A stretch of 64,000 nucleotides of DNA from Rugalucina vietnamica. Its lineage: Eukaryota > Mollusca > Bivalvia > Lucinida > Lucinidae. The stretch lies in NCBI GenBank assembly GCA_964017185.1, contig OZ024869.1:66434315-66498314 (forward strand), read 5' to 3'. Positions 8,955-59,604 of this stretch are shown one piece after another. The stretch's first letter is position 1. Every line of letters begins with the position of its first letter. Under the pieces are notes generated by a model that saw nothing but the letters and a program-made list of their open reading frames with translations, did not search any database and was not told where the DNA came from. A program made the position numbers and the translations under genes.

Positions 8955-10086
8955 ATTATAGTACGTTTACAACAACTTAAAGTATACTATATCTACTTGT
9001 GTGAAAAAATGGATCCTCGAATTTCACTGGGTCCAATTTCAAGAAATTGACACCAACTGTTGTCTGGTTTCTCTACTATCTCTATATCATTATTTCATCG
9101 CTTTAACTACAGTCTGAATCTATCCCGCGGAAGTTCTCTGCAAGCAAACGCTCTAATCCTTTGTCGTATCTATTGCTCTCCTCAAACTCTAAGTGTATTA
9201 TTGGATGCTCTTAATTTTGACGGAGATACTCCTGGTGTTGAAAAAAAGTACAAGTAGGCAATGGTCAGGAAAAGGCGCAATCAGAAAGAAATTCCCACTC
9301 CAAAAACCGAAGCGGGAAAAAACTAAATATTGACAACTAGACATTTGCACTAAGAAAACATGTCGTAAGCCGAGTGAGTAGCTATTTCCCAATAGGCGGC
9401 CACTCAGTTACCTAAACCTAACTAAAATATGAAAACGCACATAAGGTACAAACAGCACAAAAATTCAACACCAAGGCATAAAACAATAAGAACCATAACA
9501 TTTGAACATAAGATTTTTTTCTGAATATATACCACAACATTTGAACATAAACATTTTTTCTGAATATTTGCTGTCGTGCGTCACTTTCTGTTCTTGTTTA
9601 AACCAAACTCTTCTACTGCGACGCTCTTTCTGGGAATTTCTGAATTTTAGCGGGGCTTTCTGCCTAGACTAATGTTGTGGTATCAAGACCAGCTTCATCA
9701 ATGACTGTTACTTTGACACCTTCTAGTCATAATCCAGTGTTGTCAGTCACATTATGAGAGTCACTCGCCAGAGTTTGGACTGCATACGTCAGACTATGTG
9801 CAACATTGAAGGTTTCTAACTCATCCAAGACACTATCATCGGGGTTCTTCAGTATTAAATTTTTATTAGAGTTACCATTAGACGTGTTCTCTTTGGTTAC
9901 GTCTTTGGCTGTCTCTGAACACTACCCTGGTCTGTACAGTAACCGTATTAGGCCTATTGAGTAAGAGTTGTTGAAGTTTTACTCCTTCCTGGAAATGTCT
10001 CGGACTTTGGTCGTTCTTTCCGAGAGATGCTTCCACAAAAAGACTGGCGCATTTACGTCTAAGACCAGGGCTTATTTGTGATAAAT
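8955..10086. other. Non-coding; short direct repeat near 9500
   Basis: A phrase ACATTTGAACATAA followed by TTTTTTCTGAATAT occurs twice at about 9498-9570. The phrase CACTCAGTTACCTAAAC near 9403 recurs near 58512 and may be a small repeat. No exon was recognised. Confidence 0.4.
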
Positions 10087-10320
10087 GAGCCGTCTCATGG
10101 GAAAACCAACAATCTGCAAAAGCGAAAACAAAGGCGCAGATCAGCTTCGCGGTAACCGCGAAGCTGATCAGCGCCTTTGTTTTCGCTACTCGGATAGTAC
10201 AATTCCTCCTCTACTTAAATCCAAAATTTCAAGCTTCTAGCCTGCTTCTGTGACTGTACAGCCCGGTTTGTGTCAGTCCTGTTCGGAAACCACATTGTTG
10301 GTTTTTCCACGAGGCGGCTC
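10087..10320. mobile_element. Family A MITE, intact palindrome
   Basis: GAGCCGTCTCATGGGAAAAC at the left and CCACGAGGCGGCTC at the right. The centre GCTTCGCGGTAACCGCGAAGC is an exact palindrome within matching arms (GCAGATCA / TGATCAGC). Flanks are AAAT and AAGT. Confidence 0.85.
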
Positions 10321-10403
10321 AAGTGTACATATTTAATCAACATAGTATAAAACTAATTTTTCCTGGAATTTACTGGCGAAAATTCCATCAACATTTTCAT
10401 CTA

Positions 10404-24456: not shown

Positions 24457-25011
24457 ATTGCAGTGCCAATATCAATATGTCAAAAAGATCACAGTTTATA
24501 AATTAATCAGTGTCTTATAAATATATACGATGGTTTATAACGTAACTGATCTTTTTGATTGACCTGCTTTAATAAATTGTCTGGACCCAACCTCAAAGAT
24601 AAAGTTCGAAACCTTTATTTTTACATTACTTACGCCAGTTTACATGCTGACAATGTGACTTTATTCTAAAGTTTACTACATGTATGTCATTAATCCGGTA
24701 TCATCGTTAAAACAAAAACTAGAAAACCTGCTAACGCCAACATATGATCGCCATATTTGTGATGTTCGAGTTTATCTGGTCAGACAAAAGTTTCAGAACA
24801 TGAGGTCATACTTGAGATTTGGTTAGATACAAAGTCACGTCCGAGAAACACTGTCGGGAAATGTCTACCTTGCAAGACAAACTACAAGGTGCAAAGTAGA
24901 ACCTGTTGGATAATGAATGCACCAGGCCTACACATATAGGCCGTTCCTCTTCGAATGCGACCTACAAAATATGTATTCTCGTGATATTTTTCTCTGTTCA
25001 CTTATTGATAT
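24457..25011. other. Non-coding, no feature recognised
   Basis: No exon or repeat family was recognised. Confidence 0.4.
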
Positions 25012-25245
25012 GAGCCGCCTCATGGGAAAACCAACAATCTGCATAGGCGAAAACAAAGACGCAGATCAGCTTCGCGGTAACCGCGAAGCTGATCAGCGCC
25101 TTTGTTTTCGCTACTCGGATAGTACAATTCCTCCTCTACTTAACTCCAAAATTTCAAGCTTCTAGCCTGCTTCTGTGACCGTACAGCCTGATTTGTGTCG
25201 GACCTGTTCGGAAACCACATTGTTGGTTTTCCCACGAGGCGGCTC
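25012..25245. mobile_element. Family A MITE, intact palindrome
   Basis: GAGCCGCCTCATGGGAAAAC at the left and CCACGAGGCGGCTC at the right. The centre GCTTCGCGGTAACCGCGAAGC is exact. It belongs to the CCAACAAT subgroup and is close to the copy at 10087. Confidence 0.88.
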
Positions 25246-27462
25246 AATGTAGTGTTGCCTGATTGAAGCCATTTATTTTGAATATATATATTAATACCAT
25301 AGACATTTCTTTTGTATCGAATTCGAATTTTGATACTACAATATCATATTTGAGACGCTTTGGTTATAGGTATCCAATTAATAATTCTTGCTTGCTGAAT
25401 TTCATTTAACCTGATCTTAATTTAATTTATTCTGGCTATAAGCAAGTTTATAATGGTCGATATATGTCTAAAATCCAGACAAAAAGAATGCAAAATCACG
25501 TTTAACTTTAAGCAGTTTTGCAATACATAAATGGCGCCCAAGAGCGGCTGCTTTCAAAAATGAAGCTTTGTCGAATACTAAGTTGCTATCGTGATCTTTG
25601 TTCAGAAAATAAGTGTTTTCGACAAAAAATGAAAATGCTTAGCTGACCACCAGCTGACCACAAGCCCTTTGATGTTATGAGTAGAAGTAGTTGATCCCCT
25701 GCAAACATTGGAATGAGCACTGCATATCTTATTTAAGTTAATACTTTAGTTTCGTCTTGATGTGCAATTTAAAGGTTTGATATTCTTAAAATTATTGTTA
25801 TGCGGATTAAGCGACTTTATATGATTGGGGTTAATGAGGGTAGTCGCCTGGCTATATTGGCTCATTGTTGTTGCATCTTTGTAATGCGTTTGCTTGTCAG
25901 ACATATGTCTCCTATATTAACCTTTAAATCTGACTAAAACTTGGCTGACGTTTACACGCACATGCATGTGCTGACATAGCAGATTTTCACACTTACACCG
26001 AAATATGAACAAGTAAAACAACTTTCCCCTCCGTTGGACGATCTTCCACAGAGGCGTTGTTCATATTTTTGATGTCACAAAATTCGTCTACGCACCTCTT
26101 TTTTTTTCGCGTGCGCGAATAAAGATGGCCTTTCAAATAATGTGTTAAACTTTGCTGTTATTACATATCACTGATGAAAGGCCAGTGCCTTATGACCTAG
26201 CTGCGTAGCATTTGTTTTATTATGTCTATTTTTATTTTGTCTGTATATCACTTGAACTATATCGGTGACTTTTAGCTGTCTGCTGGGTAGGTGAAATGAC
26301 ATAAGGCCAGAAATATTGTGCTGTCACCGTCGGGACAATGAAAGTAATACAAGTTTGAAGAAGTCGTCCCTTCTAGTCCGTTGGGAGCTTCAAGTGCCTT
26401 GCTCAATGAACCATCCACCTCTCATCCCGAAGTCCGGTGCTCTGGCACATACGTGCAACGAATATGAGTAAACTCTACGGTCATGCCGAGAGGTTGCCTC
26501 CATATGAGACTTGTACCCAAATAACCACACAACTAAGCCAATAATGCTTGCATGTATAGATGGTTTGACTTGAAACCACAATGTCTGGTAAGGCTCATAC
26601 CTGAGCGGTTAACCGGTAATCAGATGGTCAGTCAGTAGTGCATAAGCTTTGCCTGGAGGCACAAGCAGACCATCTATTTCTTTAGGCCCCAATGGGCGGG
26701 GACACATATTCCCACCCTACCACCCTTAAAAGAATATGAGTGAGACTCTCGGCTGAAACATTACATATTTATCATTTTTAACACTGTCCATTGTAAAATA
26801 TAAACTTTGAAATGGACACGACGAGGCGGTCATAATGAGCTCAGCTTCCTAGCTACGTGCGATGGTTTGCGTCTTACATGGCCTAATGCATTTTTCCCTG
26901 GGCCTTTGCTTTCATTCAAAGTAAAGCGTCAGCTTTTTTGTACAGCCGGGCTTGTGTTTTACCGAAGGACAAACCCATGCAATCACTTGACAGGGCGACG
27001 TAAGACCTATTCGAACAATATACCACATATGTAGGTAGGTGGTAGGTGTAACCTAATGGTTCCCACGATTATTTACTTTAGTTTGTTTGTGTTTGTTATC
27101 AATATTACCAAACACAAGCTCGATCTTACATTCACAATCATGACCAGCGAAAACCGAGCAAACTTTTCTCATGTTTGTATTGTTTTCCACAAACCAGTCT
27201 TAGTTTGATTTTTGCATAACGCCGCAGTCAACACTCAACAGCTATGGTCATGCCGGGGCATTGCCTCCATTTTACGGGACTTCTACCCAACATTCAAATG
27301 TCATGGCGTGCGAAATGTGTTTCAAAATATAGTCATCCAAGTAAACAACTACGAATGATATCTGAGCCACTGCATAAGAAAACATCAGTTTAAAGCAGCT
27401 ACATTATCTGCAATATACCGCTTTTGCAATATGGCGTATGGAACCATTGATATATTTATTCA
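25246..27462. other. Non-coding; SINE-like fragments near 26480 and 27245
   Basis: Phrases GTCATGCCGAGAGGTTGCC (about 26481) and GTCATGCCGGGGCATTGCC (about 27247) resemble each other and the reverse of the SINE piece near 7350. They are probably SINE debris. No exon was recognised. Confidence 0.4.
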
Positions 27463-27733: not shown

Positions 27734-28705
27734 AAAACCTTTTGGTTGTTGCACGGGAAACACATATAAGGAAGCTGCTTCTTGTCTGTCGATTCCGATG
27801 ATGGTCATTTTTGTATACAGACCTATAATGTATCCTTCTCATTGCTTTTATTTTTAATGCTCGTCATTGCTTATGTTATCTTTCAGACCGCCATTGTCGA
27901 TTCGGGCCTGCTCAAGACGATCGACTGATGCTTCAGGAAACAGGCTTTGAGGACTACGCATGCTAGGCGGACCACGCACATCGATGCACTCGGTGTTCTG
28001 TTTTCAGCAGATATGGATATATAGAGAAAACATACGAATTTGTTTTGGTCAAAGATTTTTTTTCTGTTTTATCTTCAGTTTGACATATTTTCAATGAAAT
28101 ATTCTTCAATAAGAACCAGCCATCTTGCAAACCCCAGACTGTTTTTGATCAGAAAACCCGAGCAATCCCAAATATGTGGTTTCATGTTCCAAGACGAACT
28201 GCTTTCTAATAATTTAACTGGGTATTCGAAAAATAATGCATAATTATTAACACTTTGAAAAGGCAGTGTCCATATAAAACACACTTTAAAGCAAAATTTG
28301 TTTGGTCTATGCCTTCTGATCAAAGACGTCCTGGGGTCGTATGCAAGATGAATGGCTCAATTAAAGCAATGCAAATGAATGTAAACAAATACATATATTA
28401 TTGCAACTGAATGTGTCGAACCGAGTCGAAAGCTACTAAAACCAAGTCCCGACACTTTTCACCCCTTGAAACCGACGGAGAGTGAAATATTTCGCAAGGA
28501 TGTGAATTTAGTAGATCTCGATTCGTCTCGACACCAAGTAATGTCGAGTAGATGACTATACAATAACAAAACTTAGAACTGCTCAGTACTTTTACCCCCC
28601 CCCCCCTCCCATTTGTAACGTCAATTTAACCTCGCCACTCCAAAATCTGTTGTTTGCTGATGCAGATCAGTCTTTATATTACTCTAGCAGCGTATAATGC
28701 CATTT
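27734..28705. other. Non-coding; C-tract at 28595
   Basis: A run of 12 C lies at 28595-28606. No exon or family was recognised. Confidence 0.4.
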
Positions 28706-28940
28706 GAGCCGCATCGTGAGAAAACCGGATTTTTGCCTAGGCGAAAACAAAGGCGCAGATCAGCTTCGCGGTAACCGCGAAGCTGATCAGCGCCTTTGTT
28801 TTCGCTACTCGGATAGTACAATTCCTCTTCTACTTAAATCCGAAATTTCAAGCTTCTAGCTCTTTTCTGAGCTTGTACAGGCCGGTTTGTGTCGGACCTG
28901 GTCGGAAACCCCGAAGACCGGTTTTCTCACGTCGAGGCTC
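28706..28940. mobile_element. Family A MITE, best-preserved example
   Basis: Outer ends GAGCCGCATCGTGAGAAAAC and GTTTTCTCACGTCGAGGCTC pair with each other. The core GCTTCGCGGTAACCGCGAAGC is an exact palindrome inside arms AAAACAAAGGCGCAGATCA / TGATCAGCGCCTTTGTTTT. One shoulder reads CTCGGATAGTACAATTCCTC and TCAAGCTTCTAGC. ATTT lies on both sides (28702-28705 and 28941-28944). No protein is encoded. The unit is therefore a palindrome within a palindrome, about 235 bp, with 4-bp A/T target duplications. Confidence 0.9.
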
Positions 28941-29299
28941 ATTTAATTAAGCCTATATGGTGGGAGACTCCAAAGACATGTTTTCCAATGGCGAGGTTAA
29001 AATTGCGGTTTACGATAGAGAAACAACTAGAAAGACAAAAGTGAAAAGGATAGATTGAGAAAAGATCGACAGAGGATGGACAGAAAGAATAACAGATAGA
29101 AAAAGTTTGCTTTGGAAATTAAAATATGGTTGTTTTCTGTATAAGCTACGACAAGAGACAATCTGCCTTCAGTATTATGTGAACAAGTGCGTCAGGGAAT
29201 GGTGCAGCCCCGCAGTCTGTTCAAAACGTATGCTTCCAACATTTATGAATCTCTGGTTTCTCTGTGAACTCAAGTTTCTGGCATCCCATGTCCGTGGAA

Positions 29300-31663: not shown

Positions 31664-32131
31664 TCATCTGTCTTTGCATGGTCGTCGTTTAGCGCACGCG
31701 CACTTACGGTGTCTCTTTTTCCTTTCACCACCATCCTTTATACATTTATTGTAATATCGTTTTAATTCTTTAAGGCTTAATTTAAAGAACTGTCTTCTCT
31801 TTTTCTTACACCAATTTTTAGTTTGTGCACATTTACACTTTTCTAAACACCGCTTCCTCGAAGTTCTTGAACACTTATTCTTTGGACAACATGGTCTTTT
31901 AGGCGGTGTGTAATTAGGATCGACATCTGTATGTGTTGCTTGTGTAGTCATTTTAATGAACCTAGATTCCTTGTTTGGATTTGTAGTCACATTTCCACAT
32001 CTCATTTGACCATTTTTGTTAATTCCTAGATACCACTTAGTCCCATTCACTTCTCGGTAGTATAATTCCCGAAGTTTTCTGTTTGTCGAGTGGTTGAAAA
32101 TGCAATGTCGTGCAAATTCGGCATCATTTGT
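31664..32131 (-). CDS. Fibroblast growth factor, coding exon 3 (C-terminal half of FGF core and basic Cys-rich tail)
   Basis: Last of three exons of the minus-strand FGF gene (join of 37145-37349, 32408-32604, 31664-32131; 289 residues). It encodes residues 135-289. Residues 135-195 complete the beta-trefoil: AEFARHCIF, then LYYREVNGTKWYLGINKNG, corresponding to the family pattern of Y/W-Y-hydrophobic-G/A-x-N/K-x-x-G, then GQMRCGN and SRFIKM. FGFs are secreted ligands for FGF receptor tyrosine kinases and bind heparan sulfate through basic residues here. From about residue 200 the protein departs from the core into a tail with 11 cysteines and many Lys/Arg (PKRPCCPKNKC, KKRRQFF, KKRHRKCACAKRRPC). 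The acceptor is TTATTTTTCAG before 32131; the exon is read in phase 0 and ends in a stop codon at 31664. The paralogue group is not resolved. Confidence 0.85.
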   Translation of the reverse strand, partial: TNDAEFARHCIFNHSTNRKLRELYYREVNGTKWYLGINKNGQMRCGNVTTNPNKESRFIKMTTQATHTDVDPNYTPPKRPCCPKNKCSRTSRKRCLEKCKCAQTKNWCKKKRRQFFKLSLKELKRYYNKCIKDGGERKKRHRKCACAKRRPCKDR

Positions 32132-32287
32132 CTGAAAAATAAGAAATAAGTGAATTATATGCACTGAAATGCAAATATGCACAAACAGAAAAGTGTGACA
32201 AATAGCAAATTATTTATGTCTGAGCTGATAACAGATGTCCAGTTATGTGCACTGTCTTTACCATGCTTACTAAACATGATGATGATA

Positions 32288-32336
<49 letters not shown>

Positions 32337-32407
32337 CAATGACGATGACGACGACGACGACGACGAAGAAGAAGAAGAACTTTGAAATATGTACTTTTAA
32401 TACTTAC
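32132..32407 (-). repeat. FGF intron 2 with compound trinucleotide microsatellite
   Basis: This 276-bp intron starts GTAAGT and ends CAG on the minus strand. About 32276-32380 is a compound array on the plus strand: (GAT/ATG)n, then (GAC)n, then (GAA)n, around 100 bp in total. A plus-strand open frame with 17 Met in a row and a minus-strand His run are produced by it and are not protein. Length polymorphism is likely. Confidence 0.9.
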
Positions 32408-32604
32408 ATAATCTCTATGATATGGTGCGCTCTCGTCGTTCATGCACAAGTATTTCCCACTTTTAGTACCCTGTATGACGTGGTACAGTGGCTTCGTCGA
32501 ATGTCCGCCGCTCCAGTGGTTACCTCCTTTACCGGGCGCCCAGTTATGCTCTCTGAATAGACTGCTGTTTCCTAGTATTGTCGCAACCCAGATTGTCAGC
32601 ATGC
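32408..32604 (-). CDS. Fibroblast growth factor, coding exon 2 (middle of FGF core with enlarged loop)
   Basis: Encodes the end of codon 69 and residues 70-134. It begins after TTGTATTTTGCAG and ends at a GTAAGT donor. MLTIWVATILGNS (70-82) fits a core beta strand. A Gly/His/Asn-rich segment, about residues 83-110 (REHNWAPGKGGNHWSGGH), has no counterpart in typical FGFs. VIQGTKSGKYLCMND (111-125) is the conserved GxYLxMN-type block. The exon is 197 bp. The middle exon of many FGF genes is 104 bp, so this one is larger by 93 bp, exactly 31 codons. Entry in phase 1 and exit in phase 0 match the family's usual phases. The ATG at 32602 followed by a hydrophobic stretch could mimic a signal peptide, but its place in the fold argues for an internal exon. 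Confidence 0.82.
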
Positions 32605-35600
32605 CTGCAAAATACAAGGACAATTATATATTATGAAACTGTATATATCTACTGAAAAAATGCCAGTAGAATACGGCAAAACGCTACAGAACATGTATAT
32701 GCAATAAAGAACGAAGATCGAGTCCCGTCAGAATGACGATTGTTTCTTGCATTGACAATGGTGTTATGGATTTGCATGGGCAACATTGGAGGTGTTGGCG
32801 TGGAGCGCTGATATTTAACGGTATCGTCCGGGTGTCTTGCGTTTTACTGCTGAGTTTCGTTATGTCCACTATATCGAATAGTGACTCAGCTATGAAACTT
32901 TTAACGAGATCAACTTTTGGCTTTATTTAACAACCAGTTTACGATGGCTAAGTCAACAGTATAATCAGTATTACATTGTTGAAAAGTAATAATAAGTGTT
33001 ATTCAGAGGTGGCCAAACCCTTTTGAAAATGTATATGATTTGATTTTTTGAAAATATACACTTCGCTCTTTTGGTCCAAAGAAGGCTTACATCAATGGCT
33101 TCATGTTAAAAGTCTGTTAACATTTGATTTTGTTTGTCCTATTTACTCAGAACGATATCGTTCAATGGACTATGTTTAATTTGAGAGCCCCCTTATAAAA
33201 GCTGTTTGTTTTCTAACGTGTGGGAAACTATATCTCTCTCATCTAACCCACTATCTACCTTAAATCAATTAAAATTGTTAAAGTCTACAATAACAAAACT
33301 TTGAAACATGTTTAAATTCGTAGGTTTTGCACTCTGAAGGTATAAGAAAAGCGATGGGTGCTAATTTAGCCTTGTCATGACCAAACCCGTATTCAGAACG
33401 CTCAAAGGATGGTCCGTGCATGGTAGAAACTAGCTAGAGTCTTTAACTTTTATCAAGATGCTGCATTCTCTTTCGTTCTAGATGACAAGGGATTAAATAT
33501 TCATATATGGGAGCACCGATGAGCAGGATGATCAGTTTCTATGTCATCTCATATGTAGAACCACCAGGGCTTCTGACGACGGTGCCCAATTACGAGGGTA
33601 AACAGAGTGTATGATTATTGAGCTGAGACCAAGATCAAGTATCCTACAGTCAAACAATATTCTATGTGTTCCGCAACGTTTTCATGTTTTTGTTATTTTT
33701 ATAACGTTTTTGTACAGCTTCACTAAAAAGTCTTAAAATTTGTCTGAATTCACTCGCCGGAGACGACGAAACAATCGAACTGCGGACTGCCGTCCTCTGT
33801 TTTTGTGACAAATCTCTTATTTTCGCATTCTGGTGTATTAATATTCAGTTTTTTTCTTTATTTCCTCAATTTTCATATTATAAATTGCCATTGTTATTTT
33901 ATGCATAAAATACGTATATAAATAATATCAAAATGGTTTCGGATTGAATTTTACACCGTGAAAATCGAGACCATCATTTGGAAATAAAGCTTATAATGAA
34001 AACTCGTCAGAACCCCACCGAAAGATGATATACAAAACCAGCATATTAACAAAGCATATTGGTAATAAACTAAAATGCGTTCCTACATGCCCAATTAGCG
34101 ATACAATCAGCCGACAAACATAAAATTCGACAATAAAAAAGGAAAAAAATACATCAAAATCGTACAGGCGTGAACCGTCCGTTATAGCTATTAAATGAAT
34201 ACCTTGGGTTTTTAAATGCCTGTCTGCAGATATGAAAGAGTGTTTTTTTTTTTTTTTTTTTTTTTTTTTTGTTTTTTTTTTTTTTTATTTCAAGTAACAA
34301 GTACAAGTGTGAAGAAGGAAAGCTAAAAGAATAAACCTCGACATTCTACTATTTGAGGGGACGAGAGAAGCAGAATTTTACAAATGACTTCTATATAGAA
34401 ACATCAGTATGAAAAAGTACTTTCTTTGCATCTAGATCGACCACGTGTAGCTTGGTTTCATTTTCCTTGAACAGTAAACCAGGTAACATCAAAGAAGAAG
34501 AAAGTCAGCGAAAACAGTAGGAATTCTCATAAACACTAACACGTAACAGAGGAAACACAAGAAACAATACAATCTTGCAAAATATTAGCACAAAATCTAA
34601 GATCCGCTTAAGATGGGGGTAATGAGTAGCCAACAAACACGCTATTGTTTATATTTCTCATAACATTGGTAGTCGACTTGTCTATGTTATTCTAGAGCAA
34701 TTAGGCTAAGTTAGAGGCTGCCAGATTAAAAGATGAAAGTATCTGCTTTGTGATTACAAGCTAATGCTGGGTTTACAAGAAACACGTGCTGCAGGAATAC
34801 TAGTTCTGCGATTTTCGGACTGTTCGAGTTCCAACCTAAAAGTGTCAGTGTCCAGTGTCACAATGCAATAGCAGAGAGCGTTCAAAAGAGATGAGGAGGA
34901 AAATTCCATCACTTATCAAGCGGCTGAGTGACCGAGACACAACCGTCGCGCCACAAATTAAAATTTTGCATTTTGTGAAATTAAACCGTTTATCTAGGTC
35001 GGTCCAAGAGAACCGCACCATATACATGTATGGGTGCATAAAAAGCAATAAAAGCATGCATTTTCTTTTCCCGCTATCTCTCTTCGACAATGAATCTTAG
35101 TGTTTGTGAGATTTATTGATGTAAGTTCGTGTTTACAAGGCACATTATGACAGGAATGTCTGAAGATCAGTCGGCAAGGTTGGAATGGGTCCATTGGGGC
35201 TAAGATATGACAGATATGCTGACGCTTGAAGAAAATGGTCTGACAGATAATATTATTGGCATTGTTAGCAGGCAGTTGGGGTGAATCGGGGTAGTATGTA
35301 CTGAAGACACCCAAGCAGATGTGCGAGTCCAGCTGCTACCAGTCAGACTGTAACACATGTAGCATTATCAGGCTTTGCATAAAGGATTAACATAAATTAT
35401 GGATACATACCGGACCGATGTGCTGATTAATTATTTATCAACATATTGCTTTGTTCATATTGATAGTGAAGAGTATCAGATAATAAAGGGCAATGTGACT
35501 GTATGAGTAGTATGTGTTTAAGCAACTGAAATATGTAATGCTTCCTTCTTTAAGTACAATGTGTTTGCAGCTCTGCATAGAAGCATTGCATAACCGGTGC

Positions 35601-42170: not shown

Positions 42171-43058
42171 ACATTAGTCTTTGAGAATCACAGGAATATT
42201 CTTGGCTCAAAAAGGAAAGGAACCATTTTGTTTCTCAAAACATACCCTATCTCTTAATTTTCTTTGCATTATAAAAATGGCCCATGCTTTCCTAATGAAG
42301 GGACTATCTTGAAAATTAAAGGACATTTTAGCCCATGGCCCCTTCCAGAATTATCCCTGAATTGAATAGAGGCTGGATCAACTTTGACTGCAGTTTAATC
42401 CTGCAAATTATTATTTTGCTTTTGAAAAAAAACAACTTAAGTTGCTTTAAATCAAATTAATGTGCTTAATCACCCATTTTTTTTTTTTACTTTTGAGAAC
42501 AGGATTATATATAAAAAAAGGACATTTTGATATCAAACCTAATGCCATGCATAATAAAGCAAAACATTATATTTTTTTCCTTTTTTAATAAAATATTTAG
42601 ATTAAAATTAGATATACCATAGCTTTTAATAGGATTGATTTAATGCCCTTTTCAGTTACAATGATTTTATCAGTTAGTTAAATATCTGAATGTAGAAAAT
42701 GAAAAAAGAGGATAGATAGCAGGATTGAATGGTATTAGACATACCTTTATAGAGTGCATGCATTTTAGCGTGGCATTTATGTTAAAATGTCTTTTCATAT
42801 TTATGTGTAGGATGGATGGAACAAATTGTCAGCACTAAACACGTCAGCAGAAATAAGCACATCTTGCAAAAAATAATTTACATGTCCTAAATGTAGACAA
42901 AATGAGAAGCAGTGCAGACTCATTCAATGACAAAATAACCATTCTGCGCAATATGTACACTCTCTGCTTTGCTAACCAACTTATACTATTGTATATCTAC
43001 AGCTCAACGAGGATATTCTGTTGCAAACAATTCTTTGTTTATTTTAAATTTTACATTT
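42171..43058. other. Non-coding intron sequence, no feature recognised
   Basis: AT-rich, no repeat family identified. Confidence 0.4.
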
Positions 43059-43292
43059 GAGCCGCCTCGTGGGAAAACCAACAATGTGGTTTCCGAACAG
43101 GTCCGACACAAACTGGCCTGTAATAGCACAGAAAATAGCTAGAAGTTTGAAATTTCGGATTTAAGTAGAAGAGGAATTGTACTATCCGTGTAGCGAAAAC
43201 AAAGGCGCTGATCAGCTTCGCGGTTACCGCGAAGCTGATCTGCGTCTTTGTTTTCGCCTATGCAGATTGTTGGTTTCCCCATGAGGCGGCTC
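43059..43292. mobile_element. Family A MITE, intact palindrome
   Basis: GAGCCGCCTCGTGGGAAAAC and CCCATGAGGCGGCTC ends. The exact core is GCTTCGCGGTTACCGCGAAGC apart from its central base. ATTT lies on both sides (43055-43058 and 43293-43296). It is in the opposite orientation to the copy at 25012. Confidence 0.9.
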
Positions 43293-43388
43293 ATTTTTAC
43301 CTTTACCAGCAGGGAATAGGATTGTTTTTTGCCACGAATGCTTGCACTACCTGCACCATATTGTAAATGTTTTTCAAACTACATGTAT

Positions 43389-43741: not shown

Positions 43742-45208
43742 TGTATATGTTTGGAGTGCTCTGACAAGGGCCTATGATGAGCAACATAGATACATGTACA
43801 TTTTTTCTGGGCGGAATAATTCATAAAATATTAATTAATTGATAAGAAATTGTCATATCAGTGAATTGATAAACAATGTTTAGGAAAATATTAATAAATA
43901 GTCCATTTGGTTTCAGGAAAAAAGGCTCAATAGGGGGTTCATGAAATTGCCTAAATTTAGCGCCTCTGGAAATGGTTTGGAATTTGCTTTATTAGCATAT
44001 TGTTTTGCCAGATGGTTCCATGTATGTGATTGAGAATTTTTCTTCTTCTCGTTTATGTTATGTTTATCGGTGTTTTGATTATTTATTTGGATTTTATTAG
44101 CTTTGCATTGTTCTGTCTGTTTTCATATTCAATTTGTTTTCCCTATATGGGGCCTCTATTTGCCTCCACAGCTATTTAAAGGACCTGTCCACCATTAATT
44201 TTACTTACTTGAATCAATTGGAAATACATTGTTTTTGTTTTATTAGTTAGTGGATATCAGTTTTGTCATATCAGAGGTTGGAGAGAAGGATTTATTTGCT
44301 TAATTTTTCTAACAATAGTTGTTATTAATGATTTTTATTTTGCAACAGGTGTCTATTGACTGTGACTGTACAAGCTGACCTACTTTCAGTTGAATAACTT
44401 GACCAAGGAAATTCCACTGGTAAAGTCCAGTTTTGAATAGCATAGGACTTACATGTTTGCCAGGTGTTGAATATCTTGCTATATTTAATATTTAGTTTTT
44501 CTTTGTTAAATCTACCGGTATTCGAAGTTGGTACCGTAGAATATCAAAATCCACTGTGATGGAGATCAATGTTTACGAAGAAAGAAATGACTCAAGGTTT
44601 GTATCACTCTTTCTATTTGATTGTCAATCTAGAGACTGTTGAATACTTGGAAATAGAATTGTGGGGCATTTCATGAATTTTTGGTCACTACAGTAGGTAG
44701 TATTTACCAAATGTTACTGTAATGCTTTTGGAATGCAATGTTATACAAGTATAAGCTTTTCAAAAAGGCAGTGTCTAGCCTCTTCAGACCAGGAATCTAG
44801 CCATCTGGGTCTGGACGCTTGCTGTCTGGTAGTGTTGGAGATTCTAACCAACAGGGCCCCATCGACACGCATACCGTATATTACATAACCATTTGTTTTA
44901 TAAAAAAAATCTGTTATTCATCTTTCACACTCTTGGGCACTGTTCTGTTGGTGGCACTAGGCTTGGTGACTTCCAGAGAAGGTGGGTCAGTGGTGAATTT
45001 AGAGGGGGTTCAAGGGGTTTGCTTGAACTCCCCTCAGGACCAAAATTATTTCATTTTCATAGGGAATTTAAAGAAATTTGTCTGAAATTAGGCAAACGAA
45101 CCCCCCATTTCTGCATTTGAACCCCCTCTTCAGAATTCCTGGATCTGCCCCCGTGGGTGCAGTTGAAGAAGCTACCTATCTTCTGAGTCGATCAATTTCT
45201 GATCTTTA
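43742..45208. other. Non-coding intron sequence, no feature recognised
   Basis: No repeat family or exon was identified with confidence. Overlapping open frames at 44819-45120 have no recognisable motif. Confidence 0.4.
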
Positions 45209-45425
45209 GGGAGTGCGGTGGCGTAGTGGTAGAGTGTCAGACTCCAAATCGAGAGGTCCTGAGTTATAAATCGATCCCCACAGGCGTCACCGTGTTGTGT
45301 CCTTGAGCAAGACACATTAACTCCCTACAGTACTGGTTAAACCCAGGAAGAGTTGGCTCTGTCCCGACTTGACTGAAAAATTGTTGACTGGGACGTTAAG
45401 CCTCAATACAAAAAAAAAACAACAA
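45209..45425 (+). mobile_element. tRNA-derived SINE
   Basis: The head carries an A-box-like TGGCGTAGTGGTAGAGTG and a B-box-like region near TATAAATCGATCC, as expected of a tRNA-derived Pol III promoter. The body has ACCGTGTTGTGTCCTTGAGC and GTACTGGTTAAACCCA. The 3' part GTTGACTGGGACGTTAAGCC is followed by a poly-A tail. It is not a functional tRNA gene: the stems do not fold into a full cloverleaf. Confidence 0.8.
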
Positions 45426-46572
45426 AATTTCTGATCATCACCTCAGGTGTGGGGTGGTTGGCTAAATTTAGAATTTAGTCAAGGGGAAAATAGTTTTGAG
45501 GTGGACCATTAAAAGTATTTACACTAAAACAACTGCCTCGATATGGGCCTATTTTTAAATAGAAACCTTAAATTCCTGAAATGGTCTTGGATGAGACCAC
45601 TCGAAAAGGGATACTTTTCCAAACCTGAATAGTTCTGGGGAAAAATGAATTTTTCAGTGCATCACTATCAGGTCTGATGCAAGTCAGGATTGAGGTTTGT
45701 GACCTCCATTGAGTTTTGAAATATGCATAGACATGTGCAAAATTTCGAAAAATGGAGCATTAGGCGTAAACAAAAAATAGCTGTGTTTCCGCTAACCAGT
45801 CTGACTCTGAGTTTTTGTGCCGACCCTGCAGTTTTTATTGCCAATAAAAATAAAATAGAAATATTTTCATGCAGACCGACCCTCAACATTTGAAGTGGAA
45901 AACAGACAATGATTTAAAAACTGCTATAATTTCAACAATACTAGGTCAACTCGTTCAGCTTCCTACTGGTTTTAAACTTCATCGCATGTTTGTTTCGAGT
46001 ACTTACATGTATGATTAATTTGAAAATTAATCTGAGAATATTTTTTTACAAAACATGTTTTTTACCTAATGTTACCATTGTTTTCTGCTTACTTCTACTG
46101 TCCGGCATTGATGTCTTTCTGATTGACACAAACCTGGTTTCTGCCACTGACATCAGGTGTAAGTGGTAATCTTTTTCTTTAAGTTTAAACTTGTTTTCAT
46201 TTTTTGTTTAATAGTATTTCAGCAATGTTAAACATCAAAATGATGATATTCTTAGAAAAAAGTATAAAATATACAGAAAGCAGCAGAAATACTATTCAAA
46301 TACATGCCATACATTGAAGACTATTATTTTAAATCTCAAAATTCAAAAATTACCCCGTCCACTTATGAAATTGGAGGAATTTGCAAAGAATTCTCAAACA
46401 GATTTTGCTGAAAAATGTTTCAATTGAAAGCTGCACATTTTGCAAGCAACATTGGCCGGGCCCGGAATGATGTTGCAATTTTTGCATAGCTACATGTATT
46501 TGTTTTTCTCAATATAGATCTAGTAATTTCACGTACATTTTCAAACCTCAATGAGGTTAAAAACCTTACCTC

Positions 46573-46944
46573 CAGGGATTTTTTTGACAATTTTGGGAAG
46601 GGGCCCTAGGGCCTTTCTGATTGGGACAATTAGCGAAGTAAATTCGGAATTGGGAAATTTCAAGTTCTAGACATTCAAAATTGATATTTTGCAAAGTGAC
46701 ATGTAGCTTAATAAGGGATTTCATTTAGAATAATTATATAATAATTCATAATCAAAAGTGTCAAAAGTTAAATAACATTTCTAACAGCAAAGTTTGAATT
46801 TCACAATGTATGGAACTGTTGAAAATTATTTTCAGCTGTAATTGGGATTTTTTTCTCCAGATTGGGGAAAAAGACACCTAATAGTAATTTGCAATGGGAA
46901 TGAGGCCTAATTTCGGCCCCTGAGACACACAAAAAAAATCCCTG
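46573..46944. mobile_element. MITE with 5-bp duplication, copy 2 (inverted)
   Basis: Ends CAGGGATTTTTTTG and AAAAAAAATCCCTG, with ACCTC on both sides (46568-46572 and 46945-46949). The interior is the reverse complement of the element at 43389-43741 with moderate divergence. Confidence 0.85.
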
Positions 46945-46989
46945 ACCTCAATCCTGATGTGTACCAGACCTGACTATAGGTAAATTGTC

Positions 46990-47757
46990 TTGTGCATTTC
47001 TTTAAGGTTGGGTGCTGTGGTCAGGTATTTGTTTTTATCAAGATATACTGTACCAGAGTGTGTCTTAGTAGGACCGCTCCCTGCGGGACTCCAGCCAATG
47101 GCCACTCAAGTTTGTCTAGCATATCACCAACGCTACTGGTGTTCCTCCATCTCCTACAGGTCCACCTGGCTGCAGTCCTTTGCACCATCTCTATCTTAGC
47201 AGTCTGAGTTAGTGATGGGAATCGGCTGAATTTTCATAATCGATCATCGGTTCATAGCAAGTGACTAATTATCGAATCGAAATCGGTTATGAAAGTACAA
47301 ATGTATATATATTAACAGTGCAGCTTTACAGCCTTTATTCATTATCTTACATCCTTGACCAAGCTATATATGATGCTATAAACAGTAACACTTTGTTCAG
47401 ACACAAAAAAAATCACAATTTATTCTTTACTCTGTTACTCCAATCCCATAAATTGACCTTCATAATTTTCTAATTACATCATGGTTTATTGGAATTGAAA
47501 AGTGAAAATAGTTTGGCTAATTTTAGCACTTTCTGTATTTTGATTAATCGAAATTTCTGAGATTCAGATCGATTAATCAAAATCTTGGTAAAATCGATCG
47601 ATTTTCGATTTCTTTCGATCATCGTCCCATCACTAGTCTGAGTATCGTTATAGGGATACCAAATAAGAGCTGCATACTCGAGTTGAGGTCGAACCAATGT
47701 TTTGTATGCAATTTCCTTAGTATAATGCCTAGGTGCCATGAGTGCCAAATTATATGT
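46990..47757 (-). mobile_element. LINE reverse-transcriptase fragment split by a hAT MITE
   Basis: On the minus strand the sequence reads KTLVRPQLEYAALIWYPYND to 47644. It then resumes after the nested MITE with TAKIEMVQRTAARWTCRRW and NTSSVGDMLDKLEWPLAGV (47047-47209). This is the C-terminal part of a CR1/Jockey-like LINE polymerase. The two parts join in frame across the 8-bp duplication, so the frame was probably open when the MITE inserted. It differs from the LINE at 15348-18398. Confidence 0.8.
47210..47635. mobile_element. hAT-type MITE with 8-bp duplication
   Basis: A 426-bp element starting TAGTGATGGGAATCGGC and ending TCGTCCCATCACTA. GTCTGAGT lies on both sides (47202-47209 and 47636-47643). 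The ends are rich in CGATCGATT-type words. No transposase. Confidence 0.9.
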
Positions 47758-48292
47758 ATTTTGCTACACGACCCATACCTGGATCTTTCCCTGGGTCTGG
47801 AACTTTTTCATATAATTTTTTACACAATCGAACAGTTAAATGCATCCGCTGTGATATTTTTATTACTGGTTATCTAAATTTGCATCTTTAACACATTATC
47901 TTTTAACAAAACACTCTTTAAACTGTATCATCTCACAGACTTATTTTTCATAAAATGGTGTCTTTTAAAATGTTTATTTATACTAGTACATTTTTTGATA
48001 CATTTATGCGCATACTATTCGGGTATATAGGGTGGTATGGCAGGATAGATACATGTACATTGACAGTACTACTTCAAACTTGGATAAAATACCAACAGAC
48101 ATGAAAATGATGAAAGAGTTCAAATGATATTTGTCTGTTTCAGATTGTTGTTTTGGTTGAAAGATTGACACACTGACAATGTTGTATGTTGGATGTCAAG
48201 CAGCGTAAAGATGTTTCAGTGTTATTTCAATGATACAGTTTTTGGTAAGATCATCTTTTGTGATATTAGTCATCACATTACATACCGTAGTA
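47758..48292. other. Non-coding intron sequence, no feature recognised
   Basis: No repeat family or exon was identified. Confidence 0.4.
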
Positions 48293-48471
48293 GGGAGCGG
48301 GGTGGCGTAATGGTAGAGTGTTGGACTCTAAATAAAGAGGTCCTGGGTTTGATCCCCACAGGCTTCACCGTGTTGTGTCCTTGAGCAAGACACTACAGTA
48401 CTGGTTAAACCCATCCTGACAAGACTGAAAAATTGTTGACTGAGATGTAAGGCCTCAATACAAAAATAAAC
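48293..48471 (+). mobile_element. tRNA-derived SINE
   Basis: Head TGGCGTAATGGTAGAGTG with a B-box-like GGTTTGATCCCC. The body and tail match the SINE at 45209, with an internal deletion of about 30 bp between GCAAGACAC and the GTACTGGTTAAA phrase. Confidence 0.8.
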
Positions 48472-48936
48472 ATAGTACACATGGCTTTCATGGGGTTACA
48501 GGATGTTTAACGCACAAACCAGTTCCTCCCGGGACTGTTTTGCGTAAAAAAATATCTCGGGACATTTACTCCCGAAGAGTGCCACATGTTTTAAAAAAAT
48601 TGATTTTAATGTTTTTTTTTCATTGAAATTATTTATTTTTTTATGTCATTTCAACGAACTAAGACATCCAAATAGGATAAACAAGTCGCTTAAGGACTTC
48701 TAAAACTATAATTGGTGAACCTACCCATAAAATTGATTTTGAGCGAATCGTCTCACCTTTTTTAAGAAACAGCCCCATTCGATTTTTTGCGCAAATAGTC
48801 CTGGAGGAAACGTCACAAGGAGCAACTGTTTTTAGGAGCCCTTTCATAGTACTCAGAAAGTGACTGCATGTATGTCCAATTTTGATATGTGACAATGTCA
48901 TTGTTTTGTTATTTTGTGTTTCTAGTGAACATAATA

Positions 48937-49215
48937 CATCAGGAAAACAAGTCCGTGTTATGTTTACCCCCTTGAACCCCACTTTTATATAGCAAAACTG
49001 GGGTTTGCAGGGGTATACCTATTTTTCTTATTTTTACTCCAAAACATAGATTGTGGGTACTCGTTAGAACCGCCTCGCCGAGGCGGTTCTTACGTGTACC
49101 CACAATCTATGTTTTGAGCAAAAATAATAAAAATATCAAAGATTTTCTACTGAAATTTTTCAATTTTTACAACTTAAAAAATCTCTGTATATTGCATAGG
49201 CGTGTTTTCGTAATG
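48937..49215 (+). mobile_element. Family B hairpin MITE, best-preserved example
   Basis: Begins CATCAGGAAAACAAGTCCGT and ends GGCGTGTTTTCGTAATG. The inner palindrome has arms near 60 bp: CTTATTTTTACTCCAAAACA and GATTGTGGGTACTCGTTAG pair with the complement after CCGCCTCGCCGAGGCGG. Outer inverted repeats are imperfect. Confidence 0.85.
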
Positions 49216-49929
49216 CATGTATTACTGATGCGTGTATTCATTTATTTTCAGAGGGGAGAGAGCTTATATCATCAACAGCAAATCGAGCAGGTAGTGAACC
49301 ACAACACAAAACTTATATTTTAAGTCAATTAGAGTGGATGACTGCATGTACAATAAACTGTTCACCCTAACTTAAATGATAAATAATGGACTTTAATACA
49401 ATCTCTGTTTTGAAGTGGACATGAGTTATAGTAATACTGTGAAGAAATCAAGATTTAGTTGATATTACAAAGCAAAAATCATTAAAGTTTAGTTTTAAAG
49501 CCCTGCTATAAAAAGGCTGGGCTATACTGGATTCAGTGTGACAGTGCCATTGACAAGATCTATTCTGGGGTTTGAACTGTGCATCATTTTTTAGCAACCT
49601 GTGTCCTTTCCCATAGGCGTTTTATTGAAGAGAGGATTTAGTCTGATTCTCTGACAATTGTTGTTAAATACTCGTATGTGTATGTATGTTTCTTCTGCAT
49701 GAAGGATCTTGCTGTCTGTGACATTAGACCATGGTTAGAAGCTGTTAACAAAGATGTGCATGTGCACGAAACATGTTTCAGTGATATATAGTAAGAATAC
49801 CAAACCGATTATCCAGAACTGAGAACAGCCAACGCGGATAAAATCAGTAAAAGACTCAAAGACTGTAGTATGCAATTACGTGCCTTAGAACAACTTTACA
49901 AAAAAAAATTGTGGTCTGTGGAAAGTTGT
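49216..49929. other. Non-coding intron sequence, no feature recognised
   Basis: No repeat family or exon was identified. Confidence 0.4.
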
Positions 49930-49936
49930 CTCCACA

Positions 49937-51133
49937 ATGGCAAGCCGTTTTACTATTTATTCAAACAAACAGATATCTTATATTGTATATATATATTTAA
50001 TAAATAAGATATCTACTTTATTTTATTAGATATCTATTATAAAGAAAATATCTTATACAGCAAATAAGATATCTGTTTTGTTATATTAGATATCTAAATT
50101 GTCATTTAAGATATCTTATATAGTATATAAGATATCTTTTTAACTAAACAAGATATCTTATTTGTTAATGTAGATATCTAAATTAACAAATAAGATATCT
50201 TGATTGATATATTAGATATCTTGTTTAACAAATTAGATATCTAATATGATAAATTAGATATCTATAATGTTTTTTTCTAAATAAGATATCTTAATTAACA
50301 TATAAGATATCTAAAAAGTATATTAGATATCTATTTTATCATATAAGATATCTTATTTTAAGATATCTTATTTGTCAAATAAGATATCTTCTTCAACATA
50401 TAAGATATCTTAATTGCATTCACAAATAAGATATCTACTATGCTAAAGTACACAAAAAAGATATCTTATATCCTATATTAGATATCTTATTTAGGTTTAA
50501 CAAATCAGATATCTTATTTAGTATATAAGATATCTTATTTGTTTTACCCAATCACAATTGGTTTCTGATACTTATATAAGATATCTACTATACCAATACA
50601 GATATCTTATTTATAGCCTTAATCAAGATATCTTATTTGATAATTTAGATATCTAATATACTAAATAAGATATCATATATATTAAATAAGATATCTATTA
50701 TACCTAAACAAGATATCTTATTTACCACTTTAGATATCTTATTTGCTATATAAAATATCTAGTTTAGCAATGAAGATATATTTCTTATTTACGAAAGTAG
50801 ATATCTTAATTAATCTTGTAAAGAAGATATCTTTTTTAGGTACAGTAGATATCTTATTTAGTATATTAGATATCTAAATTATCAAATAAGATATCTTATA
50901 TGCTATATAGGATATCTTAATTGTGGGATCAAATAAGATATCTTATTTAGCATATTAGGTATCTTCTTTACTATATAAGATATCTAATTTAGGATATAAG
51001 ATATCTTTTTGATAAAGAAGGTATCTTTATTGCTTAATAAGATATCTTATATCCTAATTAAGATATCTTATTTACTATTCAAGATAATGAAGATATCTAA
51101 TAAGCATAATAAATAGTAAAACGGCTTGCCATA
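49937..51133. mobile_element. Inverted-repeat element filled with GATATC palindromes
   Basis: Exact terminal inverted repeats of about 22 bp, TGGCAAGCCGTTTTACTATT and its complement, bound a 1.2-kb AT-rich interior. The interior holds about 45 GATATC hexamers, usually as AAGATATCTTA or TAGATATCTA, about 24 bp apart on average, with variable AT spacers such as TTTGTTAATG. CTCCACA occurs at 49930-49936 and 51134-51140, a probable 7-bp target duplication. No open frame is present. Confidence 0.8.
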
Positions 51134-51140
51134 CTCCACA

Positions 51141-51623
51141 CAGGTATTTATCATGGCATCGACATTGTTTGTTTTTCATTCACAATTCTCTCTGAATATA
51201 AACCAGTGTGATATAGATTATAATACTTGCAATATGGATATGTTTATCAAGGTTGACTTTCTTTCATGACCCATTAATGGACAAACATGACAATGCAGGT
51301 CACATGAAGTTTTCATGCTTAAATTCGAAAAACAAAAAACAACAACAAAAAAAACAAACATTGCATGTGTTTTGTACAAACATGTACATGTATTATATAT
51401 GTAAATAGTGCATTTATGTTCTTTCCTAGTGTGCATTAACAGAAATAAATACATGAAATTTCATGACATATTTGTTGGTTTTAAAATTATGACTTCGAGA
51501 TCAGTAGGTGAGTCGGGGTGCAAGAAAACCTGTCGCCAGGGATTCAAAGTATGTTCCTGAAATTGAGCTATACAGGCATGATTGCTGCAGCCGAGGTTTA
51601 GCACATTACAGTCATGTATTTAG
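51141..51623. other. Non-coding intron sequence; family A-like remnant near 51508
   Basis: GAGTCGGGGTGCAAGAAAACC near 51510 resembles the left end of family A but no full unit follows. No exon was recognised. Confidence 0.4.
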
Positions 51624-51893
51624 TGAGGGCAGTGGCGTAGTGTTGAATCACAAAGTTCTGGGTTCAAACCCCACTGGGACTTGGTTGCGTCCTTGAGCAA
51701 GACACATCTGAATCTGAATGGTTTACTGGTGACACGCCAAATTGACAATACTTCACCGGGGGTGCGCCAGGAGGGAAATTAGTCCATGGCTCTCATGATT
51801 TTCACCCTGGTTGATACCCAGAAAACCGTCGCACCATCCGGACATAGCTGAAAAATTGATGACCAAGAAGGAATGTTAGACCTTAAATCAAAC
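51624..51893 (+). mobile_element. tRNA-derived SINE, diverged
   Basis: GGCAGTGGCGTAGTGTTG and GGGTTCAAACCCCACTGG serve as A- and B-box-like words, followed by TGCGTCCTTGAGCAAGACAC shared with the 45209 SINE. The 3' part has GACATAGCTGAAAAATTGAT. Confidence 0.7.
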
Positions 51894-52009
51894 ACCAGAA
51901 TTTTTAGAGCTAAAATGGCGTAGTCAGCAGCTGTCAGATTTTTAAGAAAGACTAAGAAACAACACTTTACAAAATGTACAACCCACATTTGAACTGTGCA
52001 ACCTTTTGG

Positions 52010-52222
52010 TTTGATTTAGGTATGGATGTGACGTCCCAGTCAACAATATTTCTGTCATGTCCCCAGCTTGGGACACTCCTTTGTGTGTATTAACCAGTAC
52101 TTTCCAGAGTCAATGTCCCGTGCTCATCGTGCAGTGATATAAGCCAGCCACCAGTGGGGATCCACTCCCTACATCCCTAACCAGAGTCTGATGCACTAAC
52201 CACCAGGCCAACATGCTCCTTT
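52010..52222 (-). mobile_element. tRNA-derived SINE, reverse orientation
   Basis: The plus strand reads ACGTCCCAGTCAACAATATT, the complement of the SINE 3' end, and ends with a head-like stretch GATGCACTAACCACCAGGCC. This implies a minus-strand SINE. Confidence 0.65.
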
Positions 52223-52261
52223 GAATGCATATTTGTATGCTAGTATACGCGCCAGGTCCCA

Positions 52262-52800
52262 TTTTTAGCTCACCTGAGCCGTTATGTCCACAAGGTGAGC
52301 TTATAGTATACCCATGCTCCATCGACCGTCGTCGTTGTAGTCATTGTTGTCCACAATGTTCAGTGAAACATCTTCTCCTCTAAAACCACTGGGCCAATCA
52401 AAGCCAAACTTTATATGGAGCATCCTCAGGAAGGGGGAACAAAAGTTATTTCCGCCATGGCTATAAGTAGCAAAACGTTTAAAAACCTTCTTTTCCAGAA
52501 CCATAATGACCTATGATTTTGAAACTTGGCATGAAGCATCAGGCAATGGAGCTCTACAAAGTTTGTATAAATCAATCCATGGCCCTCTGATGACCTTGAC
52601 CTAATTAACTGCAAGGTCAACATAGGTCGCCCATGCATTTGAATGGGGAAAATTGTTGAAATGTGATTTGAAGGGCAAAACTTGCAGGACATGGGCAAAT
52701 GGATGGAATATTTATGTTTACAAAAACATTTTGGCCCCAGGGGGTTGTCTGCCCCTGCACCGGGGCTATATACATGTATATGACTAAAAATTCAAACATC
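52262..52800 (+). mobile_element. AGCTCACCTGAG-type interspersed repeat, shorter copy
   Basis: Begins TTTTTAGCTCACCTGAGCCG followed by CACAAGGTGAGCTTATAGT. It shares CTTCTCCTCTAAAACCACTG, GACCTTGACCTAATTAACTG and GTCGCCCATGCATTTGAATG with the copy at 23326-24456. The 3' section of the long copy is missing. Confidence 0.75.
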
Positions 52801-53320
52801 ATGTCCGGATTGAACTGACATTTCGTAGGTTCTTAACTCTTTTTTGCTCACCATTAAAAGAAATCAAGAGGGGAGGGGTTCATCACCCGACCCTCACATA
52901 TTTCTTAACCATTCTTAAGTTTTGCATTCAGTCTTATTCTTCAATCATGATCTTGTTCAGAAATACTGCATTAATTATTAAATTAAAGGATGACTGCTCT
53001 TTTGAATTTTTTAATTTTCTTTTTATGTGACTACATCGCTCTCAGAGTTAGTATACTGATTATACATTTTATTTGCCTAAACTGAGTGTGTAGTCATAGT
53101 CGGAACCGGATCATTAATGTCTGTATCTATTTGGTAATTGACCAAAACGCCCGAATCAGTACTGGAAAGCAGTCCGGTGAATGAAGGAATTTTAACACGG
53201 AGCCGTTTCCGTAATAAAACCTTAGCAAATCAAGCCATATTTCTTTTTAGTATTTCTACCACTTTTATCACACCGCCCAATTATTACATGTGGCTACATG
53301 TTATAGCTTTTCTTGTTATA
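52801..53320. other. Non-coding intron sequence, no feature recognised
   Basis: No repeat family or exon was identified. Confidence 0.4.
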
Positions 53321-58621: not shown

Positions 58622-59604
58622 ACGACCCGGGCCCCCGCCATCTCATGTTATGACGTATTGTGTCAGAGCTGAAGCTCCAACAATTTGCCTTTGTGCAATA
58701 TGATGTCATTATCTACATGACCTTGAGACTTGTAAACGTCTCATCGGATGATGAGATTCACCCAGATTTTTTTTTTTTGATTTTCAGACGACCCCCACCA
58801 TCTCATGTTATGACATATCGAGAGCTGAAGCTCCAACAATTTGCCTCTGTGCAATATGATGGAATTATCTACATGACCTTGAGACTTGTAAATGTCTCAT
58901 CGGATGATCAGATTCAGCCAGAATTGAGCCGCATCGTGAGAAAACCGGATTTTTGCCTAGGCGAAAACAAAGGCGCAGATCAGCTTTGCGGTTACACCGC
59001 GAAGCTGATCAGCGCCTTTGTTTTCGCTACACGGATAGTACAATTCCTCTTCTACTTAAATCCGAAATTTCAAGCTTCTAGCTCTTTTCTGAGCTTGTAC
59101 AGGCCGGTTTGTGTCGGACCTGTTCGGAAACCCCAAAGACCGGTTTTCTCGCGTCGCGGCTCAATTATTTCTTGTTTTCAGACGACTCCACCATCACATG
59201 TTATGACATATCGAGAGCTTAAGTTTCAACAATTCGCCTCTATACTGTTACAGTATCTAGACGCCACAAGATTTCCTTGTAAACGTCTCATCAGATTCAG
59301 CCAGAATTATTTCTTTATTTTCAGACGACCCCACCATCTCATGTTATGACATATTAAGAGTTAAAGTTCCAACAATTTGCCTCTATACAGTATCTACATG
59401 ACGCCACAAGATTTCCTTGTAAACGTCTCATCAGATTCAGCCAGAATTATTTCTTTATTTTCAGATGACCCCACCATCTCATGTTACGACATATCGAGAG
59501 TTAAAGTTCCAACAGTTTGCCTCTATACAGTATCTACATGACGCCACAAGATTTCCTTGTAAACGTCTCATCAGATTCAGCCAGAATTATTTCTTTATTT
59601 TCAG
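58622..59604 (+). pseudogene. Five decayed copies of MICU-like exon 2, with acceptors
   Basis: Copies begin right after a TTTTCAG acceptor at 58622, 58788, 59182, 59325 and 59465. The functional exon at 59605 is the sixth. Each starts with A(C/T)GACCCC-type sequence and reads toward SHVMTYRELK and QQFASVQYD. The first two keep GGTATTATC-like length but run into ACCTTGAGACTTGTAAACGTC. The third differs within the same region. The fourth and fifth lack 11 bp (TGATGGCATTA), a frameshift. All five replace the true exon end with CTTGTAAACGTCTCATC and a new ATTATTTCTTTATTTTCAG acceptor. The last spacings are 143, 140 and 140 bp. A family A MITE sits in the second copy. Use as alternative exons is possible but unproven. 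Confidence 0.8.
58926..59162. mobile_element. Family A MITE inside an exon-2 copy
   Basis: GAGCCGCATCGTGAGAAAAC start and CTCGCGTCGCGGCTC end, with AATT on both sides (58922-58925 and 59163-59166). It interrupts the CCAGAATTATTTC phrase that is intact in the later copies. It keeps a nearly perfect centre and reads without stop in one frame, so a 229-codon open frame crosses it. Confidence 0.9.

Follow-up and report, generated by a model that had tools for sequence, protein, structure and literature searches.

The element at positions 49936..51133 of the 64-kb stretch of DNA analysed here (the window) belongs to a gene-less DNA transposon that is present in several hundred copies in this animal genome. 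Its interior is a long array of the palindromic word GATATC. Sequence comparison of two subfamilies shows that the word, its 21-bp pitch and a mirror-symmetric layout of steps have been kept while the spacers diverged. This suggests that movement of the element involves a protein loaded along many regularly spaced sites.

The window element and its copies

Exact GATATC occurs 45 times in 49937-51133 and 15 times in the remainder of the window, which agrees with the preliminary description of about 45 words in 1.2 kb. First-order Markov simulation predicts, on average, 0.96 in the element from its own composition (500 runs, none above 5) and 0.25 per 1.2 kb from window composition (300 runs, none above 2). 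The most frequent spacing between words in the window element is 21 bp. The decamers around the 45 words are AAGATATCTT (19), TAGATATCTA (8), AAGATATCTA (7), TAGATATCTT (5), and others (6). In a profile of 51 cores, 45 exact and 6 with one change, the word is nearly invariant, and an A six bases 5' and a T six bases 3' of it are unusually conserved. The features of the element are as follows, with the arm limits as defined on the family majority sequence.

49936..51133, + strand: transposon, outer bases counted in (A..A at the window copy, T..A elsewhere)
49930..49935, strand-less: left target duplication, 6 bp, CTCCAC
51134..51139, strand-less: right target duplication, 6 bp, CTCCAC
49937..49961, + strand: left terminal inverted repeat, 25 bp, exact match to the right end
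51108..51132, - strand: right terminal inverted repeat, 25 bp, exact match to the left end
49972..50534, strand-less: left GATATC arm, first exact site 49972, last 50529
50535..50579, strand-less: central 45-bp spacer (51-bp step), where L060 has an interior of c. 0.9 kb
50580..51097, strand-less: right GATATC arm, first exact site 50580, last 51092

The inverted ends had been put at 22 bp; they are exact, as stated, but the perfect repeat measures 25 bp. Similarly, there is a target duplication, but in place of the 7 bp first proposed (CTCCACA) it is 6 bp, CTCCAC, because other insertions show the outer base at either end to be part of the element. In the window copy, an A replaces the usual left outer T. 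The 25-bp end has no further match in the window at up to 3 mismatches, where 100 shuffles also gave 0.

In the assembly searched (1.09 Gb, 47 contigs) there are 1,617 matching ends at up to 3 mismatches, 814 forward and 803 reverse, with 0 and 0 for the reversed control. The element is therefore not a single copy without shared ends, and the many end matches, together with 6-bp duplications at different sites, bear out its description as transposon-like and mobile.

The best whole-element matches are a different matter from separate insertions. Of the 40 best-scored matches among 859 candidates, 39 reach within two bases of both ends of the query, flanks included, and the remaining one begins at base 72. 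When 30 of these were compared, all 29 non-window copies were found to resemble the window locus beyond the element, with L029 sharing the window flank sequence almost solely on the right. Five copies extended to 20 kb have in common a repeat of about 9.4 kb, with about 99% identity apart from indels, and the window copy of this carrier, 9.5 kb long, is 94-97% identical to them:

43807..53317, + strand: larger dispersed repeat (carrier) holding the window element

The shared flanks and carrier mean that these best matches descend from one insertion amplified with the carrier; their interpretation as separate insertions was rejected, and they are mostly carrier passengers. The longest stop-to-stop ORF of the carrier is 132 aa (one copy). 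Its termini (L034-L043, window 43807-53317) read CTGGGCGG... and ...CTTTTCTTGTT, and inspection of five copies by eye revealed neither an obvious inverted repeat nor an obvious target duplication.

The end matches are listed for the first 100 places, and copies for comparison were selected by end sequence, never by GATATC words. The places listed include 20 further pairs of terminal inverted repeats, 11 with carrier flanks, 8 with other flanks, and one (L050) with the carrier on one side only. Each of the 20 contains 32 to 110 GATATC inside its outermost ends, and its flanks contain at most one. Where an end has no listed partner, GATATC follows in 22 out of 23 cases. The exception, L066 (43 to end), which counts against the reading proposed below, has no GATATC in 1.5 kb: its perfect end leads into 1.4 kb that lacks the word and contains a different repeated block. 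It may be another interior behind the same end or a nested insertion.

Several copies are atypical. L050 has the carrier right flank and a different left flank, as in a truncated carrier or a recombinant between copies. L061 is the element head to head with itself, with the flanks mirrored, which is either a palindromic duplication or an assembly artefact; L070 and L076 have the same flank and start as L061. L068, L071, and L077 have another start sequence and one common flank. The 1.3 kb insert of L045 is off-centre and is taken as a nested element. L047 is a tandem multimer within carrier flanks, in which a single reverse end accompanies three forward ends spaced at 1,065 bp; as the only such multimer in 20 pairs, it reduces the suggested role of the array as a satellite seed to an occasional one at most.

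Elsewhere in the window, exons of an FGF-like gene are present at 31664-32623 on the - strand. The FGF-like exon scores 23 bits, slightly below the Pfam cut-off of 24, and the FGF domain is found in three out of four relatives of the protein, the window's own left out; on these grounds the DNA most likely comes from an animal. There is also a dispersed repeat of c. 240 bp with many window copies, for example:

10085-10327, 25010-25251, 28704-28948, 43057-43296, 58924-59170, both orientations: c. 240-bp repeat

Target duplications were scored in 11 insertions, window included, with the outer T..A assigned to the element. An exact 6-bp duplication is present in six (window, L044, L045, L052, L057, L060), in which other lengths from 3 to 10 match poorly. 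The match is 5/6 letters in L050 and the C subfamily, 4/6 in L049 and L061, and 2/6 in L063, which has none; these 5 of the 11 without an exact duplication count against the reading proposed below. Nine of the 11 have the outer T..A next to ATGGC / GCCAT, the exceptions being the window (A on the left) and L050 (T on the right). Judged from the TA..TA termini and 6-bp duplications alone, the element ends are of IS3EU/GingerRoot type. Target duplications of hAT elements are 8 bp, and hAT membership, with a 7- or 8-bp duplication, was ruled out since the other insertions fix the register at 6 bp. Helitrons and Helentrons have neither terminal inverted repeats nor target duplications, and were ruled out by the 25-bp inverted ends and the 6-bp duplications.

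Conservation of words, spacing, and arms

The comparison of words with spacers depends upon L060, which was aligned to the majority of five young independent copies (L044, L045, L049, L052, L057). L063 (truncated), L061 (palindromic), L047 (multimer), and L050 (half-carrier) were excluded, and the long inserts of L045 and L060 were removed before counting. Homology between L060 and the family holds for each unit in turn: spacer similarity is 0.757 in register and 0.598-0.639 at shifts 1 to 8, and 52 of its 57 spacers are equal in length to those of the family. Against the family majority, L060 has changed in 1 of 348 word letters (0.3%) and in 235 of 928 spacer letters (25%). The five young copies differ from their own majority at 32/1760 word and 105/4765 spacer letters, and 40 carrier copies from the carrier majority at 71/13086 and 242/35454. 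Fisher's tests of L060 against the young copies (2e-14) and against the carrier copies (4e-18) take letters as independent, and the alignable contrast rests on this one diverged element. Seven more copies, read from one end only, have 8/540 word and 34/1401 spacer changes (p 1e-6 against L060); these are 7 of 20, the other 13 being carrier copies, interrupted, L061-like palindromic, or of other subfamilies.

Among G/C letters, L060 has 0/116 changes in words versus 65/118 in spacers, while in the carrier copies the rates are equal (45/4351 and 48/4663), so that mutability does not underlie the main contrast. With A/T letters alone the L060 contrast remains (p 2e-4 and 4e-8); here the word is also less changed in the carrier copies (26/8735 versus 124/22176), with 9/1175 versus 67/2978 in the young copies, and part of the A/T contrast may be due to mutability or to earlier selection. 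Copies decaying after insertion lose word letters about as fast as spacer letters. Taken with the contrast in L060, these similar rates of decay show that the words are held by selection on the moving lineage.

The conserved sequence extends beyond the word. In L060, the bases beside it have changed at 0/58 sites on one side and 1/57 on the other, those six bases out at 6/58 and 6/57, and those eight bases out at 29/58 on each side. The footprint so delineated is dyad-symmetric, A-N4-AGATATCT-N4-T, 18 bp, as for a dimer. Indels are rarer in L060, 8 per 236 substitutions compared to 25 per 137 in the five young copies (p 2e-5), where they include a few large events, one of them the remnant of the insert cut from L045.

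The family majority has 59 sites, with 21-bp steps in 46 of the 58 intervals. In each arm, steps of 26-28 bp occupy positions 2, 7, 13, and 19 when numbered from the central 51-bp step towards the end, an agreement for which the chance, with four steps among 26 positions, is 1 in 14,950 as a rough figure. The long steps of L060 are at the same positions, with its c. 0.9-kb interior at the array centre. No mirror similarity was found between the spacers of the two arms (0.648 in mirror register versus a background of about 0.67). Foldback elements have long inverted repeats, with both arms matching in sequence; this class was rejected, as past the 25-bp ends the arm spacers are no more similar in mirror register than at other shifts, although the step pattern of the arms, unlike the spacer sequence, does mirror. 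At 10.5 bp per turn, 21 bp is two turns and 26 bp close to two and a half, which would place successive clusters of sites on alternate faces of the helix.

Two more distant groups were recognized. L081 with L087 retains both ends, with 37 GATATC, and the D-subfamily (L086 with L088) has one end, 21 exact GATATC and 3 one-letter variants; that it keeps fewer words than L060 is a point against the reading proposed below. Their spacers have no register-specific similarity to those of the family, and they retain the ends, the word, the 21-bp pitch, and occasional 26-bp steps. In both, the second step from the centre is 26 bp and, by eye, the later long steps are unlike those of the family. Beyond the array in the D-subfamily (L088, L089) there is no long ORF, the longest being 126 codons stop to stop. 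The question whether other copies would share the spacers or the word alone is thus answered differently for near copies, which share spacers, and for distant ones, which share ends, word, and pitch only. The selective conservation of the word, the dyad footprint, and the spacing all support the putative multi-site binding platform suggested in the preliminary description.

A possible role for the array

On balance it is probable that this is a non-autonomous DNA transposon with IS3EU/GingerRoot-type ends, in which two arms of 18-bp palindromic sites load a dimer, probably the transposase. A dimeric DNA-binding protein would occupy each dyad, this protein being most likely the transposase or a partner of it, encoded by a putative autonomous parent. 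Neighbouring dimers may cooperate along one helix face in each arm, and both loaded arms may help bring the element ends together. Copies poor in sites would then move less, and those rich in sites would seed new ones. The autonomous parent probably has the same two arrays around its gene, and L060, with its central interior of c. 0.9 kb, may be an intermediate.

A more elaborate version, put forward tentatively, is that the whole transposon is a phase-locked scaffold, with a dedicated protein polymerising over the mirror arms and pairing the ends. Its clusters would be of 2, 5, 6, 6, and more sites, 21 bp apart inside a cluster and with about half a helical turn between clusters, and the array geometry plus the end sequence would define the transpososome.

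It is rather unlikely, but worth serious consideration, that the protein bound by the array belongs to the host and is not the transposase, perhaps a factor of chromatin or replication, and that the element has been selected for recruiting it, with an open state, the avoidance of silencing, or copying as the result. This predicts the same conservation, dyad footprint, and phasing, and would suit sites that occupy the whole element body and not the ends only; viral episome-maintenance proteins are described, in the text available from PMC3798644, as using 21-bp-phased dimer sites on origins. Against it, AGATATCT was matched to no known factor, and a word that is near-exact at c. 57 sites would seem to go beyond the need of a host factor.

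There is little to recommend an ordinary minisatellite within a MITE, in which growth by slippage and young or homogenised units would mimic conservation of the word. MITEs with tandem repeats are known from bivalves and other animals (PMC8268682, in part), and local gains of units do occur, such as the 44-bp insertion in L049. However, the unit-by-unit homology of L060 and its equal step lengths make the array older than the split, adjacent units are no more similar than distant ones, and homogenisation should keep the spacers alike, yet these differ at 25% of their letters and the words at 0.3%. Least probable of all is that selection keeps a cruciform or hairpin, of DNA or RNA: the units are near-palindromic, the single strand folds extensively (with no shuffle control above 1000 bases), and the L061 copy is palindromic with flanks included, but complementary pairs across the dyad are not significantly more frequent than expected (smallest p over 17 positions 0.05), the arm spacers are not mirror images (0.648 versus about 0.67, as above), and it is letters and spacing that are conserved, not pairing. 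The cruciform or recombination-prone structure offered at first is not upheld, with no significant covariation across the GATATC dyad and no mirror similarity of the arm spacers.

Gene-less transposons are often pictured as two ends plus filler. Here the natural copies are a mutational record in which dozens of internal sites and their spacing have been retained in the replicating lineage. The requirement for sites becomes testable, by comparing copy success with site number and with a bait of six AGATATCT dyads at 21 bp. The comparison of word versus spacer, in the source lineage versus decaying copies, could also be used on other repeats annotated as filler or satellite.

Comparison with known systems

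MITEs with tandem repeats, subterminal binding arrays, and SIRC cassettes have all been described before, and Repbase may already name the window family. An array occupying the whole body, mirror-symmetric, conserved in spacing, and with demonstrable selection on its word, did not turn up in the open PMC papers that were searched. In the part of PMC10045372 drawn upon here, TA..TA termini are constant in complete IS3EU families, in which 6-bp TSDs are usual, and GingerRoot yields 6-bp TSDs. Both features are common to the window family. Autonomous IS3EU and GingerRoot relatives have an IS3/IS481-like DDE transposase; no transposase was seen in the copies of the window family compared here. In the available text of this IS481EU paper (PMC10045372), internal site arrays are not described and the word 'subterminal' does not occur.

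The bivalve tandem-repeat MITEs and satellite-carrying elements are, like the window family, non-autonomous with an internal repeat array, but their monomers are satellite units, and selection on a word inside the unit is unmentioned in the portion of PMC8268682 available. The SIRC cassettes of Arabidopsis thaliana have short direct repeats with diverse spacers and are thought to originate in MITEs, and according to the text available from PMC10342631 the repeats are mostly without a palindrome (1666 SIRCs, about 57%). By SIRC criteria (CRISPRCasFinder direct repeats, A. thaliana) the layout is alike, yet the spacers are common to family members; the window family differs in its fixed palindrome, its fixed phasing, and spacers common within a subfamily.

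Two of the 3 bacterial stretches matching a three-site pattern were inspected and set aside as short arrays in other contexts. These, L001 (6950-7270) in Geomonas and L002 (1480-1610) in Bacteroidetes, are short AGATATCT-like arrays of ~21-bp pitch, as selected by the pattern search itself. In a viral sequence collection there were 0 matches to the end and 0 to the array.

The text available from PMC3260210 describes cooperative binding of Ac transposase to AAACGG repeats, which lie within the terminal 200 bp and of which three are enough. In that account Ac/Ds, of the hAT superfamily, has many short sites bound cooperatively by its transposase, and non-autonomous derivatives keep the ends and sites with variable filler. 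The Ac/Ds hexamers are confined to the terminal 200 bp, whereas the window family has sites throughout its body at a 21-bp pitch, and a 6-bp duplication. Herves transposase likewise binds its motif cooperatively (PMC3143072, in part). The EBNA1 sites of the Epstein-Barr DS element are semi-palindromic, 16-18 bp, bound by a dimer, and 21 bp centre to centre (PMC3798644, from the same available text); DS is a viral episome origin with few sites, and the likeness is functional only, with no relation of sequence or descent. By analogy, the closest working models for the array would be the binding of the Ac and Herves transposases and, for the 21-bp phasing, the EBNA1 sites of DS.
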